NCBI GenBank assembly: GCA_949130485.1
Contig: OX422192.1
Coordinates: forward strand, 3,480,085-3,544,084
Length of the DNA stretch: 64,000 nucleotides
Direction: 5' to 3'
Source of the DNA: Agelas oroides
Taxonomy: Eukaryota > Porifera > Demospongiae > Agelasida > Agelasidae
The notes under the pieces were generated by a model. The model saw only the letters and a program-made list of their open reading frames with translations, made no database searches and was not told the origin of the DNA. This document shows positions 5,513 to 57,704 of this stretch, one piece after another. The position numbers and the translations under genes are program-made. How positions within the stretch are numbered: the first letter of the stretch is position 1; every line of letters begins with the position of its first letter.

Positions 5513-6240
5513 ATACACCCCCTGTGGATGAGCTTTAATTATGTTGAGGGGGGTGTATTGTCAGAATTGTGATTAGTGTCAAGGGGGGTAAAAGTGGTTA
5601 ATCTTAATTACATACAGGGGGGGTATTGTCAGAAGTGTGATTAGTGTCTGGGGGGCCAGTGCTGTCAGAATTATGGATTTGTGTCAAGGGGGGGTAGAAG
5701 TGGATGAGCTTTAATTATGTCAAGGGGGGTGTATTGTCAGAATTGTGATTTGTGTCAAGGGGGGTAGAAGTGGTTAATCTTAATTATGTATGGGGGGGGG
5801 GGGGATATTTGGGTCAAAGGGGGTAAACTTTAAGTAGGATTATGTCTGGGAGCCAGTGTTGTCAGAATTATGATTAGTGTCAAGGGGGTACAAGTGATTC
5901 AAGCTTAATTATGTACAGGGGGTGTATCATATCAGAATTATGATTTGTGTCAAGGGGGGTTGAAGTGGATAAACTTCAACTAGAATTACGTCCAGGGGGG
6001 TGTATTGCCGGAGGTATGATTAGTGTTAAGGGGGGTACAAGTGGTTCAGAGGTAGCCTCGTTCCCATGCCTCCCCCGTTTTCTGTTCTTTGGTTTGCGTT
6101 CAGTATAATATATTGAACGCAAACCGAAGAACAAAAAACGGGGGAGGCCTGGGAATGAGGCTAGTTCAGGGGGTGTGTTGCCAGAATTGTGACTTGCGTC
6201 AAGGGGGATAAATTCTTTAAGTATAATTATGTCCATGGGG
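5513..6240 (+). repeat. Degenerate G-rich tandem array
   Basis: About ten imperfect units of the form GGGGGTGTATTGTCAGAATT, then GTGATTAGTGTCAAGGGGGG and a short AT-rich spacer ending TTAATTATGT. A MULE-like MITE at 6053-6163 interrupts it. All G runs lie on the plus strand. Confidence 0.8.
6053..6163. mobile_element. Palindromic MITE with 9-bp target duplication (MULE-like)
   Basis: TAGCCTCGTTCCCATGCCTC at the left and its near-perfect inverse at the right form a hairpin covering almost the whole 111 bp. The flanks are GTTCAGAGG (6044-6052) and GTTCAGGGG (6164-6172), a 9-bp duplication with one change. A 465-bp relative sits at 54603-55067. Nine-base duplications are typical of Mutator-like elements. 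Confidence 0.75.
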
Positions 6241-6444: not shown

Positions 6445-6640
6445 ATTCTGTTAATTGTGTCAGGGGGTAGCTACTACATCTCACTTGATTTGCTGTCCAG
6501 GGGGTTGGAAAAGCTGTTAATTATGTCAGGGGGTACTATATCCCATTTGATTGGCTATCCAAGGGGGTAGGTATGCCTTTAATTGTATCAGGGGGGCTCT
6601 AAGTCCCATTTGATTGGCTGTCCAGGGGGGGGGGGGGGGG
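6445..6640 (+). repeat. Three copies of the 63-bp G-rich unit
   Basis: Units containing GTCAGGGGG, CCCATTTGATTGGCTGTCC and AGGGGG are the same repeat that forms the array at 9420-10085, in the same orientation. The repeat therefore borders both sides of the 2.8-kb interior of the large TIR element. The stretch ends in a run of about 15 G. Confidence 0.8.
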
Positions 6641-9419: not shown

Positions 9420-10085
9420 TGTGTCAGGGAGACATTACTGATCGGCTGTCCAGGGGGGTGGTCATACAGTTAATCATGTCAGGGGGCACAACATCCCATC
9501 TGATCAGCTGTCCAGGGGGGTGGACATACAGTTAATTGTGTCAGGGGAGCATTACAACCCATTTGATTGGGGTGGACATGCAGTTAATTGTGTCAGGGGA
9601 GCATTACAACCCATTTGATTAGCTGTCCAGGGGGGTGGACATGCAGTTAATTGTGTCAGGGGGGCATTACAACCCATTTGATTAGCTGTCCAGGGGGGTG
9701 GACATGCAGTTAATTGTGTCAGGGGGGGCATTACAACCCATTTGATTAGCTGTCCAGGGGGGTGGACATGCAGTTAATTGTGTCAGGGGGGGGCATTACA
9801 ACCCATTTGATTGGCTGTCCAGGGGGGTGGACATGCAGTTAATTGTGTCAGGGGGGCATTACAACCCATTTGATTAGCTGTCCAGGGGGGTGGACATGCA
9901 GTTAATTGTGTCAGGGGGGGGCATTACAACCCATTTGATTGGCTGTCCAGGGGGGTGGACATGCAGTTAATTGTGTCAGGGGGGCATTACAACCCATTTG
10001 ATTAGCTGTCCAGGGGGGTGGACATGCAGTTAATTGTGTCAGGGGGGCATTACAACCCATTTGATTAGCTGTCCAGGGGGGGTAT
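9420..10085 (+). repeat. 63-bp minisatellite with GGGGGG boxes, about ten copies
   Basis: The unit contains GTCAGGGGGGCATTACAACC, CATTTGATTAGCTGTCCAGG, then GGGGTGGACATGCAGTTAATT. Copies are highly uniform, differing mainly in G-run length and a TTAGC/TTGGC change. The array lies just inside the right terminal inverted repeat of the 5492-10167 element. Confidence 0.9.
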
Positions 10086-11769: not shown

Positions 11770-13540
11770 GCACATGTTCCCCAGGGAAACACATATCACT
11801 GCAACATCAGGTACACCAAGGTACATCAAATGATTGTGGATTTGATGCCACTGCTCAGGCAATGGCCAAATCCGTGCTGCAAGTTAAAAAGTAGGGAATG
11901 GATAATTATATTATAGACCTAATAGTCTAGTATAGTGTGGGGGTAATGCCCCCCCTCCCCTTTTGCATGTTGTGGGGGCAACTGTCCGTTTTCTACACCT
12001 ATGTAGTAACATTTAATTGTGCACGTCCTTTAGCAGCCCGATAGCTCTTATCAGTACAGCATGACTGCATGTTGATGTAGTATAACATCATAGAAATGAG
12101 TTGTCAGAGTTCATACATAGCTGTGTATGCATGTTTTTCTCCAGCTACTGGTACTCGTTTGTGCTAGAAGTTGCAAAATTACAGCAGCTAAAAATGCATA
12201 TTCCCCAGAGTGCCAATCATTTTTTTGCTGTAAAAATGACCATAAAATGAATTCCCATTACATTTGGTAATCCATGTAAAGTTAGCTAGTAATACATGAA
12301 GAGGAAGGTCATCTGTTACCAATTAACTCGAGCTCAGAAAATAATTTGCTGACATTTCGACTGAATGCTCCAGTAGTCATTAGGGCGAAAATGAAGAAGT
12401 GTGAACAAATGGTGCTATTTACAGCCATGCACTACTGAGGATACCCGTCATTGGAGGTCAAAGGTCGGTGAGGATTGCTCCTCCCTCGATCCTGCCTCCT
12501 CATCACAGTGGTCCAGCAACCAGGGACTTCCAGTCCTCCATCCTGTAGCCCCTACTTCCGCCGCCCTTTGTCTTCCACTGTTCATCTTGCTTGAATGTTG
12601 CAAGACTTTTGCAATCTGCTGTAAAGTATAATGTTTTGTGTATAGACTGGGGGGGGGGGGGGGGGGGGGGGGGGGGCTTTCCAGGAAATCACCCTTACTC
12701 TAGAAAATTCCAGGGCTCCACCAGCTAATTAATTTGGGTATTGGCAAGCAATATAGACTAAATGTAAATAAACCATGAAATGGGAAAAAAAACTGAGCAT
12801 CTTCGTACATGCATGCAGCATTTACTACACTATGATATGGTCCTTCTCTTCTCCTTGGATTCTCATGCATGAACAATCAACGAACCACATCTCCCTTATA
12901 AAACAGGCCTAGATGTTATGCAAAGTCATGCATGTGCTGCAGCAAGAACAGCTGCACATGGCATATACACCTTCGAGTATATACCTAATCCTGTGACGTC
13001 TACAGTAGTTGTGCTGCCAGTATATTGGTAGTCATCATGGAGGGTCTATAGGAACTTGTTACTCAGTTAACGTACCAAGTGTATATGATTAGTGATGATC
13101 TGACATCATACTTTATTGAGACCCAACTTGGAGGAGGGTGGAGGGAGCCTCGTTCCCAGGCTCTCCCCTCGCCCCTCTGTTTTTTTTTTGTCGGGGCAAG
13201 GGGAATGAGGCTATAACTGGCCTGGTTCTGGACTAATGTTTAGTCAGCAGAACAAGGTACGAAGTTGAAGTCTGAACTTGCCGCAGATATCTTTTGAATT
13301 TAATATACACAACATTTCAACTGATGTTGTCGTCTTCATGTGTATAATATATCATAATACAACAATGCTATGAAAGTAACCCAATAATGGGTATACTTGT
13401 ATATATAGCATACATGAAATAAATTTACTTCATGGCATACTTGGGAAAGAAAGACAGCTATGATATGATATACATATACGGTGAGTAGCTGTAGACACTC
13501 TTACAAGGTGCAGAAAGCTAGTTATTACATAAAAGTCTAG
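11770..13540. other. Gene-free stretch downstream of the acyltransferase gene
   Basis: No recognisable coding exon. It holds a 28-G run (12649-12676), a partial copy of the GGAGATGTGGTT repeat family (about 12870-12960, inverted) and an AGCCTCGTTCCCAGGC foldback at about 13146-13214. On the minus strand an AATAAA at 13112-13117 lies about 430 bp past the acyltransferase stop and could be its polyadenylation signal. Confidence 0.5.
12649..12676 (+). repeat. Uninterrupted run of 28 G
   Basis: A 28-base homopolymer, one of the longest G runs in the window. Its exact length may be unreliable in any assembly. Confidence 0.85.
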
Positions 13541-13542
13541 AA

Positions 13543-16500
13543 TCAATCATTTTTGGTGTTGTTAGAAGACTCTGACTTCAGCACTCTCTCAAAATGGTAC
13601 CTCTGGCTGAAGACATCAATGTAGAAGGAGGCACCATTGTAGCATGCTACTGTCATCACAACCAGCACCAGAACAACATGAAAGTGTTTGCTGTGAGGAA
13701 GAGGAAGGTGCATAGAAAATGATACATTGGCACACCCCTTTAAATTCCTTCCCCCCTCTCATGAAAGGGAGAGTGCCTGTACTTTCCGACTACAATTCTA
13801 CCCACCCCCAGGCTGTTTTTTTTCCATTTGAGCCTGGAAGTGAGATCATTTGCCTACTGACACATTCAACCAATAGTTGAACTTAAGCCATGACTCACAT
13901 GCCACAATTGTGGTGTGTTGTCAATATAGTGTGATTCTTTCAATGAAAAATAATGTGCATTGCAAACACACCTGTGCACACACATTTGTGTAATTGGTAA
14001 AGCTGGCATGCAGGAAGTTTGCACCTGAGATTCAGGCATTGTCTTATTTAGTGCTTTTGGAGTTTCAGGTTTCAGTATTCACTACTAGAGGTGTTTCACT
14101 ACTATATTAGATGAGCTTTTTCAAAAGGCAGAGAATCAGAGAATCACACACACACACACACACACACACAATTCTTACTAGTGGTAGCAGACGTATGCCA
14201 GGAAGATGGAGAGAGTGGTGTAGATAAACTGCCAAACCATGAACATGGTTTTGCGATGTTTGAGACCAAAGATACTAAACAAGCGGAAGAAAAAGCCTTG
14301 TTTTGCTCGCTCCACGATCCACTTGTAGCTGGTGGCATATTGCCTCTCTTCCACCCTTTTCTTTCGCCACACTTCCACCTGAAGACCAATGGTGCAGTAT
14401 TATCTATTGTACAGCCTTGATCATTGACTTACATGTACAGATGCATGCAAGAGGAATTACCACAGAAAATGACTGTTATGTCTGAAACAGAATCAGATAA
14501 TTCCTTACTGTAACAGTATCTTCAATCAACAAGTCTAATTTTTAATGCACAAGGCAAAGTGGAGTATTTAATGAACTTAGCCACACACTTAATACTGCAA
14601 GCAATCCTCGGGGTTAGCCTTTGATGGCATCTACATTGCTAAAGATGTCCCCCGGTGCATCTCCGCACTCAACCATGCATAAGTACAGTACAACTGCAAG
14701 CACATGTTTCACAAGTAAAGATTGCATTGAGACAGTTGACAAAGTTTTACGTGTACAACACACATTCAATGGCAATACACTCAATAACACCAATGGCAAC
14801 TAGGTGGTTGAGGCACAAGCAGTCACAATAACAAAACATGCTTTTTGTTGGATATACAGTCATGCAATAATGAGTCATTTAGTGAACAGAACGTTCACAG
14901 CACGATAAGAGCAGAAACACACAGCAGGCAACAAAAGCTGTGGTGCAAGCCTAGGAAGAGGCTAGGTTGCTGCTACCTGACCTACTGTATAATCTTACCA
15001 CTCCAATGTACAGCAACTGCCAGACAATGTACAGCAGCATTGGGTAGAGTACTATCTCCATCATGTCCACATGCTGGCAGCCGTCTGGCCCAGAGTGGGA
15101 GGGGCTGTAACACAGTGGAAACCCCTGCTCCTCTGAGGTAAACCTTTGTGTTATACAGAAATTCAAACAAGCCCTGTCAGCTAAAACATATATTATAGAG
15201 AGATACATGTACAGTAGGCAGAACTAAACACACTTTTATGTGATAACAATTCCATGCAAACTCTGAAACTTCTTGTGGACTGTTGGTTCAAAGTATCATA
15301 ACTGAAAGTGTACATGTTGGTAACTTTTTTATCATTCTTGAACTGTGTGCTAAATCAAGAAAGGAAATCATGCATACAGTTGTTAGTCTCATTCAAATCT
15401 CATGCCCTCAGTATATATGGTACACACAATTGGGGGTCTCAATGAGGGTCTGAGAATGAGACTATACCCTTTAATTAATGTTTGAAGTGGTCAGGTTACT
15501 AGTACGTGTGTAGGCATGCAACAGCTACGGGGGATCTGGAATAGGTCTATTTTGTAAAGCGTATCTCCAGTCTTGTATTGCCTGAAGAAGACCCCTCAGG
15601 GTTGAAACGTTGCAAAAAGTTTGATGAAGTTTTGTGCATTCGAAGATTGCTCAGATTATTCACTCACGAATATCTACACCTAATGTACCCACACAATCTT
15701 CGGCCCGAGACACAGGTTGTTCGAGGTATAGACTACTAGAAACTCATCATGCAACAGCTAGGGAGGATCTGGGGCATCCTCCCCTGAACTGAAATCGGCA
15801 GCCAGACGACAGATGTTTGCATGCATGAATATCTTCTACCTTTCCTGCCCTTTGCGCCTCACGTCACTAGTTTCGGCTTTCCAATCGATTGCTTGAAGGA
15901 CGGAAAGTATAGTTGGAGGATGGGGCTCATCAGGAAGACTTGGAAAAGACTCTTTCACAGTTCGCAGCTATCTTGCTAGTTTCAATGTGTGGCTTCTGAC
16001 CTGCCAATGCAGCGCGTGGAGCTTGCGTGGGTGACCACCGAGCCATAGTGCTAATTGGCAACACCAAGCAAGCCAAGGGTATGGAAAAAGTGGTCTGGTT
16101 GAAACTGGACTAACCGGACAGGCAGCTACGGCCCTGTTTTCTACATGCACTAACTACATAATCGCATCCACTCACCCCCATATGTATGTACATAATTCAT
16201 ACACCATACACTCACCACCGGATACCCCACATGCACTATAATTTACACACCATACACTAACCACCGGATACCCCACATGCAATATAATTCACACACCATA
16301 CACTCACCACCGGATACCCCACATGCAATATAATTCACACACCATACACTCACCACCGGATACCCCACATGCAATACCACTGGATACCCCACACGCAATA
16401 TAATTCACACACCATACACTCACCACCGGATACCCCACATGCAATATAATTCACACACCATACACTCACCACCGGATACCCCACATGCAATATAATTCAC

Positions 16501-19500
16501 ACACCATACACTCACCACCGGATACCCCACACGCAATATAATTCACACACCATACACTCACCACCGGATACCCCACATGCAATATAATTCACACACCATA
16601 CACTCACCACCGGATACCCCACATGCAATATAATTCACATACCATACACTCACCACCGGATACCCCACATGCAATATAATTCACACACCATACACTCACC
16701 ACCGGATACCCCACATGCAGTATAATTCACACACCATACACTCACCACCGGATACCCCACACGCAATATAATTCACACACCATACACTCACCACCGGATA
16801 CCCCACATGCACTATAATTCACACACCATACACTCACCACCGGATACCCCACATGCAGTATAATTCACACACCATACACTCACCACCGGATACCCCACAT
16901 GCAATACCACTGGATACCCCACACGCAATATAATTCACACACCATACACTCACCACCGGATACCCCACATGCAATATAATTCACACACCATACACTCACC
17001 ACCGGATACCCCACATGCAATATAATTCACACACCATACACTCACCACCGGATACCCCACACGCAATATAATTCACACACCATACACTCACCACCGGATA
17101 CCCCACATGCAATATAATTCACACACCATACACTCACCACCGGATACCCCACATGCAATATAATTCACACACCATACACTCACCACCGGATACCCCACAT
17201 GCAGTATAATTCACACACCATACACTCACCACCGGATACCCCACATGCAATATAATTCACACACCATACACTCACCACCGGATACCCCACATGCACTATA
17301 ATTCACACACCATACACTCACCACCGGATACCCCACATGCAGTATAATTCACACACCATACACTCACCACCGGATACCCCACAATGCCAGTGAAGGAGAC
17401 AAGTGGATGAAGAGAGAGGTCATCTTATCAAGGGAATGTGGGACCACAGAGTTGGTCCAGAGTACTATTGCACTGAGGACGGGCCCGTTTGAGAAGCCAA
17501 AGATGATGGGAAAGAGGAGTCCACGGATGGAGTCTCCAAGAGGCAGCCAAAGGTAAACGAGGATGAAGAAGTTGGTGAAGTAGCAGAAGTCAAACAGGAA
17601 ATAGTGCCAGCGGAGTTTCTTGTATGCGTACCACCGGTAGGAGAGAAGAATGATGGCTTTCTGTGAGAACAGAGAGATAGAACTGAAACTAAAGTCATCA
17701 TTCTGCTGCAATGTTGTAAATATTGTTGCAGTCTCACTCTGAGACACAGCATCCTCCAGCACTAACAGCTTGTGTCATTTGTCAGAATGTACTTATATGC
17801 ACTCATGCAATTAGCTTGTGTCTACTAGCTACAGTACATGTGTATATTACCCCATCCATGCAGAACACAAACTGGCAATCAGATATTCAACTCAGATAGC
17901 TATACAATGCTGCACGAAGCCTTCATGAGCCCCAGCCTACTGTCATCAACAACAAATAATATCAAGGCTCTCAACCTTGTGACATTGCATGTCTACTGCT
18001 ATATGGGGTTGAAATATTTGTGTGTGATGAGTATATAGGTACATTTTCATGTGGATTATCAAAAGAGGCCACCCCCATCTTTTTGAGGTGCCACTAAAGT
18101 TCATCACTCATGGGCATATTTCAGAGGTTACATGATAACAAGGGCACTTTGACCGCCTCGAGAGAAGTTTAATACTTGATGCTGACGATGTGACGGGTAG
18201 TATACAAACCCATCGATACATACATACACATACATACAATGTACATTTAGGCAGTTACAAGTAATTGCCAAGCATACATGTATATACCTGTGTGTGCCAA
18301 AGATAGAAGTACTGAGGCACGTATCCCACTATGAATGCAGTAAGACATATGTTCACCATGAAGATCTGCATGTGACAAAAATGTCATGCATATAAGGTAG
18401 GAGACTATTAACATAACACACGATACTTTACAGTATAGAGTATTAAAAAAATCTAACATACTTAGTAGCCATCATCCCTGTCCTTGTTAACTGACTAATG
18501 AGCTCCTAGACCCTCCATTAATGAGAGGAAAAAACCCTGTTACCATGGTGATGGCTGCTCAAGACTTGTAATTCTTGAAACTTTTGTTTAGTGAACACAA
18601 GTGCAGTTCTGCACTGTTACTTCATTCTCTGCTATATGTCCAGAACTATGCAATAAAGTAGCCTCTGGTAAGGAGACGTACAGTAAACATAAGTTTGTCG
18701 CTTGTAGTGTCACTCAGTTTGAGAATGGTGGCAATGTCGTGAAGTTCTTCATCATGGAACTCAACAAGGTCCAAATCAAGATAATCGGTTTCCTCAGGTG
18801 CTGGGAAGGAGGAGAGGAGGGGAGGAGGAGGAGAGAAGGAAGAGAGGAAGAGGGGAGGAGGAGAGAAAGGGAGGAGGGGAAGAGGAGAGGAGGGGAGGAG
18901 GAGAGAAGGGGAGGAGGAAAGGAGGAGGGGAGATGGGGAGGATCCGGAGGAGAGGAAGGAAGGAGGAGAGGAGGAGAGAAGGAAGGGAGGAAGAGGGGAG
19001 GAGGAGAGAATGGGAGAAGGGGAGGAGGGAGAAAAGGGAAGGAGGATGGAGAGATTATTGAAAGTACAGATTCTATGCTGCATGTTATTCCAACTGTAGT
19101 AGCTAACACTTCCTGTAACCAAACAAAAGATAAGGTGGTCTACTTAATAGTTTTGAACATGCACTGTCAAGTTTGCTACATGCATACTTCACGGATCATG
19201 TGCTCTGTGTGTGTTGGTACTGCTACTGCATGTTAACAACTATTTACATGTTGATCAGTAACTACTCAGTGTACTGCAAAACCTTGAAGATGTCTCCTGG
19301 GAGTAGACCAAATCATTACATCTCGCATGGGAGTAGACCAAATGGGAAGACACCCCCTAAATCATTACATCTCGCATGCTACATTTCAGGCCTTTTTCTA
19401 CCGGGAACATGGCCACAAAGAGCTGAGCTTTTTTGCAGTTGACAATTAATGGTAATCACTGCCACCTGCACGAACATCAGAGAAGTCCCTGATGAGAAAA

Positions 19501-19969
19501 CAAATTGTGTTCTTAATTAAGGACACAATTGGCCTTATTCATCAACTGCGAAAAAGTTTAGCTCTTAGACTCATGCCCATGCTCGCCAGGCTGTGAAAAA
19601 AAAAATTGGAATGTAGCATCTGGAGGTAAGCACTCCAATCTTTATTGTAAATGACCCTGATTTGCTTTGTTTGAGAGAAAGTTGAACACTGAGCAGAAAA
19701 GCTTCTCCATGTGTCAGGTTCAGTAAAAGGATCTAAGCAAATATTCCACACTTCCAACCCCCAGACCCTCTAGTCTCGCGGAGCCAGACTCTCACACAAC
19801 GCAACGAGTCTGGCTACGCGAGACTGCAGACCCTCCTCATTGCTCCTGGCCTCATAAATTTTTGTTTTCTCATGAAGATCTGGGAGCGCAACTAGGGTTG
19901 GAGGGGACCTGGGAACCCAGACTAAGGGAAGCGACACTTACAAGGCCCGGAGTCCTTCTTCTCTGTCAT
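13543..19969 (-). CDS. GPC1: Glycerophosphocholine acyltransferase (Gpc1/DUF2838 family), seven exons
   Basis: Minus-strand exons in transcript order: 19942-19969, 18682-18800, 18288-18365, 17368-17660, 14999-15173, 14179-14378, 13543-13690. They total 1041 nt (346 codons plus stop), and every junction is GT-AG with matching phase. The protein has an acidic cytosolic N-terminus (to about residue 55) and then about eight hydrophobic segments. Family signatures include YFLFDFCYFTNF, the GPVLSAIVLWTNS block with HSLDKMTSLFIH (about residues 134-161), YPMLLYIVWQLLY, RQYATSYKW and a C-terminal YNGASFYIDVF. Characterised yeast and plant Gpc1 proteins transfer an acyl group from acyl-CoA to glycerophosphocholine, making lysophosphatidylcholine in an internal membrane. 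Length is slightly below the yeast protein. The fourth exon's donor lies inside a large minisatellite. The short first exon (MTEKKDSGP) is the least certain part, but phase and donor fit. Confidence 0.85.
14147..14170 (+). repeat. (CA)n microsatellite next to a splice donor
   Basis: About 12 CA units lie a few bases downstream (on the minus strand) of the GTAAGA donor of acyltransferase exon 6. Confidence 0.85.
16172..17385 (-). repeat. 46-bp minisatellite, ~26 copies, derived from an exon-intron junction
   Basis: The plus-strand unit reads CACCACCGGATACCCCACAT, then GCAATATAATTCACACACCA and TACACT. Copies are nearly identical and vary at a few sites (ATGC/ACGC, AATA/ACTA/AGTA). A shortened 24-bp unit occurs at about 16371 and again at 16901, exactly 530 bp apart, indicating a higher-order duplication of about 11 units. 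Read on the minus strand, each unit carries GGGGTATCCGGTGGTGAGTG. These are the last codons and GTGAGT donor of acyltransferase exon 4 (exon end 17368), so the first copy includes real coding sequence and the array extends into the intron. Confidence 0.95.
18801..19055 (+). repeat. Purine tract (GGGAGGA-type), pyrimidine tract of an acceptor on the minus strand
   Basis: About 250 bp of almost pure G/A on the plus strand directly abut the acceptor of acyltransferase exon 2 (exon begins 18800). On the transcribed strand it is an extremely long polypyrimidine tract. The long frames across it are low-complexity artefacts. Confidence 0.85.
19760..19825. repeat. Hairpin in acyltransferase intron 1
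   Basis: AGTCTCGCGGAGCCAGACTC and the inverted GAGTCTGGCTACGCGAGACT are near-perfect complements separated by a short loop, probably a small palindromic MITE. Confidence 0.7.

Positions 19970-20190: not shown

Positions 20191-57704
<37,514 letters not shown>

Follow-up and report, generated by a model that had tools for sequence, protein, structure and literature searches.

A minisatellite across the predicted exon 4/intron 4 border of an acyltransferase-like gene in the sponge Agelas oroides

We analysed a 64,000-nucleotide stretch of the Agelas oroides genome (GenBank assembly GCA_949130485.1, contig OX422192.1, positions 3,480,085 to 3,544,084 of the forward strand), here called the window, in which a predicted acyltransferase gene on the minus strand carries a 46-bp minisatellite. 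The minisatellite starts within the final 16 bases of exon 4, extends about 1.2 kb into intron 4, and in its intact units repeats the end of the exon together with the 5' splice site. An earlier note on this DNA had described the splice site as the seed of the array. The evidence given here comes from the sequence of one assembly, and the gene model and the donor strengths are predictions. Positions are those of the window unless a locus name precedes them, and a slash within a motif marks the exon/intron border.

The host gene

The gene model has seven coding exons on the minus strand, with GT-AG borders, consistent phase and an open frame:

19942 to 19969, minus strand: coding part of exon 1, with the start codon at 19969; the weakest part of the gene model
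18682 to 18800, minus strand: exon 2 of the gene model
18288 to 18365, minus strand: exon 3 of the gene model
17368 to 17660, minus strand: exon 4, 293 nt, ending in phase 2; predicted from the reading frame, the Pfam match and the splice signals
14999 to 15173, minus strand: predicted exon 5, with its acceptor at 15173 and Trp at the junction (WGIRW)
14179 to 14378, minus strand: exon 6 of the gene model
13543 to 13690, minus strand: coding part of exon 7 of the gene model, ending at TGA

The start of exon 5 at 15173, as implied by the earlier note, is in frame, but it is one of three such acceptors among the 12 AG sites scanned; those at 15143 and 15104 fit too, and all three require the same donor phase. 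We preferred 15173, which gives a protein of 346 residues, because a Trp results at the junction; the arginine-tryptophan pair at the exon 4/5 junction is one that we take to be conserved in the DUF2838 family.

Residues 44-157 of the predicted protein matched Pfam PF10998 (DUF2838) over profile positions 1-111 of 111, with 119.3 bits against a cut-off of 25.2. The DUF2838-bearing yeast gene GPC1 encodes a glycerophosphocholine acyltransferase, and activity has been reported for yeast and plant members; GPC1 homologues are present in animals, though none turned up in chordates or arthropods (PMC5122774). By homology only, GPC1-type glycerophosphocholine acyltransferase would be a fair name for the product of the sponge gene.

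A 127-residue piece of the protein had no confirmed relative in viral contigs (6 pattern matches) or in prokaryotic genome contigs (47 pattern matches), and the protein with its exon 5 start set at 15104 had none among solved structures at E values up to 1. These searches say little because the collections held viruses, bacteria, archaea and solved structures.

Intron 1 ends, on the minus strand, in a CT-rich tandem tract of about 220 bases (18807-19028) with TCCTCC-like repeats, which reaches the predicted acceptor of exon 2 (18800). Abutting the acceptor as it does, the tract may be a second repeat array in the gene, one that serves as the polypyrimidine tract of a 3' splice site.

The array and its overlap with exon 4

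The features of the array, from the whole to its parts, are as follows:

16183 to 17383, minus strand: 46-bp minisatellite with 27 unit starts (17380 to 16228); the low end assumes 46 bases for the degenerate last unit
17368 to 17383, minus strand: last 16 bases of exon 4 (TGTGGGGTATCCGGTG), repeated exactly ahead of the donor in each of the 23 intact copies in the intron
17362 to 17367, minus strand: GTGAGT at the start of intron 4, its predicted authentic 5' splice site; exon 4 ends GGTG/GTGAGT
17364 to 17366, minus strand: TGA that comes into frame (CGG TGG TGA) when the first donor is passed over, with a stop after residue 173
16210 to 17321, minus strand: 23 further intact GGTG/GTGAGT donors, their first intron bases running from 17321 to 16215
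16897 to 16920, minus strand: 24-bp short unit by script split, start 16920, donor deleted
16367 to 16390, minus strand: second 24-bp short unit by script split, start 16390, without donor, identical to the first
16229 to 16274, minus strand: unit 26, donor altered to GTTAGT (GGTGGTTAGT), 3 differences from the consensus
16183 to 16228, minus strand: unit 27, donor intact, second half degenerate, 9 differences from the consensus
16170 to 16175, minus strand: extra GTGAGT (GGG/GTGAGTGG) in degenerate sequence just beyond the last unit, without the exon-end bases

The array, the content of its junctions, the TGA and the likeness of two blocks of units described below can be read directly from the bases. 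Units were cut by script at GGGGTATCC, with 46 bases assigned by the script to the last one (start 16228); counted in this way, 25 of the 27 are full-length (46 bases) and the other two are the 24-bp units, which also show a G-to-A change in their exon-derived part. Tandem Repeats Finder reports the same array as three 46-bp pieces, broken at both 24-bp units. The junction GGTGGTGAGT is intact at 24 of the 27 unit starts, namely at the exon's own donor and in 23 copies. A search of the window for the 19-base pattern GGGGTATCCGGTGGTGAGT, allowing 3 mismatches at most, gave 25 matches, of which 24 were exact; 100 shuffles gave 0.03 on average. Intact donors are mostly 46 bases apart, three gaps being wider, and the last intact donor of the array lies 1152 bases beyond the first. 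The tandem array thus lies on the strand and at the place that the earlier note had given, but its count of about 26 equal donors becomes 27 unit starts with 24 intact junctions, and the junction is perfect in those 24 rather than in every 46-bp unit, two short units having no donor and one unit reading GTTAGT.

The part of the unit that precedes the donor coincides with coding sequence. The exon end and the intronic copies share a stretch of 16 bases, TGTGGGGTATCCGGTG, at 17383-17368 (13 had been claimed before); these 16 are exact and common to all 23 copies. A longer homology, over about 24 exon bases with two one-base gaps, was rejected, the preceding 20 bases being no better than shuffles. 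For the 20 bases upstream of the shared 16, a match at least as good was reached by 1492 of 20000 shuffles, with the best-matching unit type, and by 135 of the 892 coding 20-mers. We therefore claim 16 bases only.

A search of the assembly (259 Mb in 141 contigs; common words were skipped and the best candidates alone were scored) located the array at a single place. It returned 24 places including the window itself, five of which were partial, with 67-71% identity to part of the array. One of these five, L002, the only one inspected, had been a candidate for a further copy of the array and was rejected as an 11-bp TGTGTGCATGG array. Just past the array, at 16100-16140 in intron 4, lies part of a dispersed repeat, and 18 of the 24 listed places match only or mainly there.

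Donor choice, origin and rival explanations

The exon 4 donor is predicted to pair with U1 small nuclear RNA at -10.0 kcal/mol, or -11.1 with one more base, and is the best predicted U1 match among the six donors of the gene, the other five ranging from -1.2 to -8.0. Scores for the 29 GT sites between 17655 and 17300, an interval covering almost the whole of exon 4 and 68 bases at the start of the intron, put the exon donor and its first copy level at the top with -11.1; the next scored -7.5. The exon 4 donor is also the strongest one that keeps the frame, and its phase matches that needed by exon 5. The 23 intronic copies are as strong as the real donor by prediction. Use of any of them would carry the reading frame into CGG TGG TGA, as the earlier note had said, and end translation after residue 173. 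By prediction the first donor is required for the full protein.

The units of the array differ little from one another. Within copies 1-25 the 23 full units diverge pairwise by 1.9% on average, and this low value suggests that the expansion is recent or that the array has been homogenised. Variable columns in the same 23 units are only 27, 39 and 43, all outside the exon and donor part. When units were labelled by type, units 1-11 read ABCACCDCCDE and units 12-23 read ABDACFCDCCDE, two blocks that match in order, as well as they did in only 5 of 10000 shuffles. We read this as the probable duplication of a block of about 0.5 kb beginning with the exon-side unit type. We infer that the exon border was probably the source of the array, because the exon end codes for protein and the most decayed copy lies at the far intron end. 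The proposal that the splice site seeded the array fits these observations (a perfect exon-side copy, a last copy that is the most decayed, and the likeness of block 1-11 to the next).

We think it probable that the growth of a minisatellite over the boundary between exon 4 and intron 4 has for the most part been tolerated, with the first donor productive and the later ones giving non-productive leakage at most. A 46-bp segment taking in 16 bases from the end of exon 4 and 30 from the start of intron 4 would have been duplicated in tandem, and expansion would then have gone on partly by multi-unit blocks to give the minisatellite of 27 unit starts, for the most part a tolerated by-product. Exon 4 would normally be spliced from its own, exon-most donor, because this is the strongest frame-keeping one and would be kept intact by selection; exon definition would favour the first donor. 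The 23 downstream copies, with equal predicted U1 binding, may occasionally be used, and their products, carrying the premature TGA, would be removed by nonsense-mediated decay or would yield a 173-residue truncated protein. Preferred use of the first donor, leakage and a cost of leakage are what we infer from this arrangement.

Several points weigh against this reading. Between two comparable donors the intron-proximal site is favoured, by a mechanism stated as unknown, and U1 binds both competing donors equally early in assembly (PMC6002489, the latter citing Hodson 2012). Such a preference would lead one to expect heavy use of the downstream copies at a strong cost, which is in tension with an array that is tolerated. 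A weaker donor, CCG/GTGGTG, lies three bases upstream of the first (-7.5) and is also in phase, and the stray GTGAGT at 16175, beyond the array, scores -11.5, slightly better than the array donors. As to the block duplication, the limits of blocks 1-11 and 12-23 in the shuffle comparison were picked after the units had been viewed.

Like the sponge array, the 31-bp variable number tandem repeat (VNTR) of human CBS lies at an exon/intron boundary, that of exon 13 and intron 13. It is written c.1444_1467+7(16_21) (PMC2630376), which we read as the 24 last exon bases plus 7 intron bases per unit, in 16-21 copies. More copies have been associated with lower CBS activity and higher homocysteine (PMC5188458, citing Lievers et al. 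2001); by the same review's account the repeat at the boundary is non-coding sequence, and the CBS findings listed there are inconsistent. On our reading of the CBS notation, and by the gene model in the sponge, the unit of either array spans a coding exon end and the 5' splice site; copy numbers are similar. The CBS unit is 31 bp with 24 exon bases, whereas that of the sponge is 46 bp with 16 exon bases and lies in a different gene; for CBS there are polymorphism and enzyme data, whereas the sponge array is read from one assembly. A minisatellite on a 5' splice site is thus already known, as is the claim that copy number matters, and the array is less novel than the earlier note implied. We regard it as a further example of the CBS type, in which dosage tuning by copy number is possible.

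Other systems resemble the array in part. In human segmental duplications, tandem repeats at exon-intron boundaries (PMC2812944) are likewise border minisatellites able to change gene structure, but what is discussed for them is the origin of new introns from cryptic splice sites among recent paralogues, while here the donor belongs to an intron between coding exons. Intron gain by tandem duplication, as in potato RdRp and in the ATP2A1 and fission-yeast 24-bp repeats cited in PMC4974935, also duplicates splice signals; a new intron arises there, whereas here the array lengthens intron 4 and, as far as visible, only the 5' border of the intron has been amplified. The 38-bp VNTR in intron 6 of TERT (PMC3948165) is likewise an intronic minisatellite and alters splicing according to its number of copies, of which nine or more are needed; its effect comes from RNA:RNA pairing and it lies over 1 kb away from the exon borders, while the exon-side stretch of the sponge array, folded by itself, is unremarkable. 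In Caenorhabditis elegans, the minisatellite CeRep25B (PMC4039745) is enriched in introns that lie close to exons subject to multiple splicing decisions; regulatory motifs are proposed for it, and in the text available it is not presented as the copy of a splice site. Besides CBS and the PMC2812944 repeats, no like case was found in the open-licence literature, as judged from titles and the starts of abstracts among the matches listed.

The extra donors could instead form a functional decoy array, holding the U1 small nuclear ribonucleoprotein or being used often, so that array length sets the amount of productive mRNA under selection for dosage control. This is unlikely in our judgement. In its favour, 23 copies are predicted to equal the real site in strength, each behind a premature stop, and CBS activity is reported to fall with copy number, in findings that the same review calls inconsistent (PMC5188458). 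Against it, conservation at the donor positions does not demonstrably exceed that in the rest of the unit, and an argument from unit variation for selection on them was dropped, three variable columns being too few; two units, moreover, have lost the donor and also carry the G-to-A change in the exon-derived part. A fuller version, in which the 23 stop-backed decoys compete, length sets the amount of acyltransferase and the exon-side copy, held by selection, re-seeds the array as a copy-number rheostat, we hold to be more doubtful still. The notion that RNA structure hides the donors was rejected: a 158-nt stretch of the exon end and about three units, folded alone, had a z score of 0.22 and folded no better than shuffles, 117 of 200 being as good.

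The order of events could also be the reverse, an intronic minisatellite with GTGAGT having existed beforehand and the end of exon 4 having been re-set to its first copy, so that the last 16 exon bases derive from the array. In favour of this are a nearby intronic minisatellite, at L012, with GTGAGT in each unit and no exon overlap in a predicted 379-base intron, and the 3 of 31 arrays in 264 kb that hold a strong donor match, against 0.44 expected (both described below). We consider it improbable, since the exon end continues in frame into LALWGIR with the phase that exon 5 needs, and the most decayed unit stands at the intron end and not at the exon end. An error in the exon 4 model, or a pseudogene copy, would make the overlap with the coding end meaningless. 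The Pfam match does end at residue 157, some 15 residues short of the junction, and no relative was confirmed in viral and prokaryotic collections, though none was expected there; seven exons with consistent phase, an open frame and a strong Pfam score make this explanation very improbable. Hardly any weight falls on a U1 platform, in which the many strong U1-complementary sites in tandem would aid the authentic donor or keep the intron from being cleaved and polyadenylated too early: AATAAA is absent from intron 4 and ATTAAA occurs once, and with such scarce polyadenylation signals there would be little to protect. Tolerated leakage seems to us the most likely of these readings, and selected tuning is possible.

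With 24 identical donors, only the first of which gives the full protein by prediction, the locus offers a clean natural test of donor choice. The same array could serve to test whether gene dosage depends on array length in the way reported for the human CBS repeat, and it indicates that the end of a coding exon can be incorporated into a minisatellite with the frame kept.

Donor-bearing and other arrays in the neighbourhood

Tandem arrays were surveyed over 264 kb (the window and 200 kb of flanks) at a period of at least 15 and at least 3 copies, with overlapping rows merged and the best score kept. Units with GGTRAGT occurred in 3 of the 31 arrays, a count in which merging left only one piece of the acyltransferase-gene array. 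The number expected was 0.44 (P about 0.01), for which a mean unit length of 40 was set by hand and a background rate was used that includes the donor-rich arrays themselves. Among the three donor-bearing arrays, sharing of exon sequence was seen only in that of the acyltransferase gene; the other 28 arrays were not checked for exon overlap.

The other two donor-bearing arrays were judged by eye and from lists of open reading frames. At L012:7679-7923 (G000:C10, minus strand) a 50-bp array of 4.9 copies matches at 100% and carries GGTGGTGAGTT in every unit. Five GTGAGT copies lie here in the intron of another gene (8001-7623, 379 bases, predicted by eye), 78 bases past its donor and off the exon. 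This array of putative decoy donors hints, in a small sample, that the genome tolerates such arrays. At L027:6764-6905 a 47-bp, 3-copy array has ATATGGTGAGTT in each unit, with no clear exon alongside.

Elsewhere in the window, a run of 28 G occupies 12649-12676 and a perfect 115-base CTCC array 38312-38426. A 63-bp array of 8 copies, 97% matching, lies at 9569-10081, and a diverged relative of its unit was recognised by eye at 6450-6630 and perhaps at 5547-5797.

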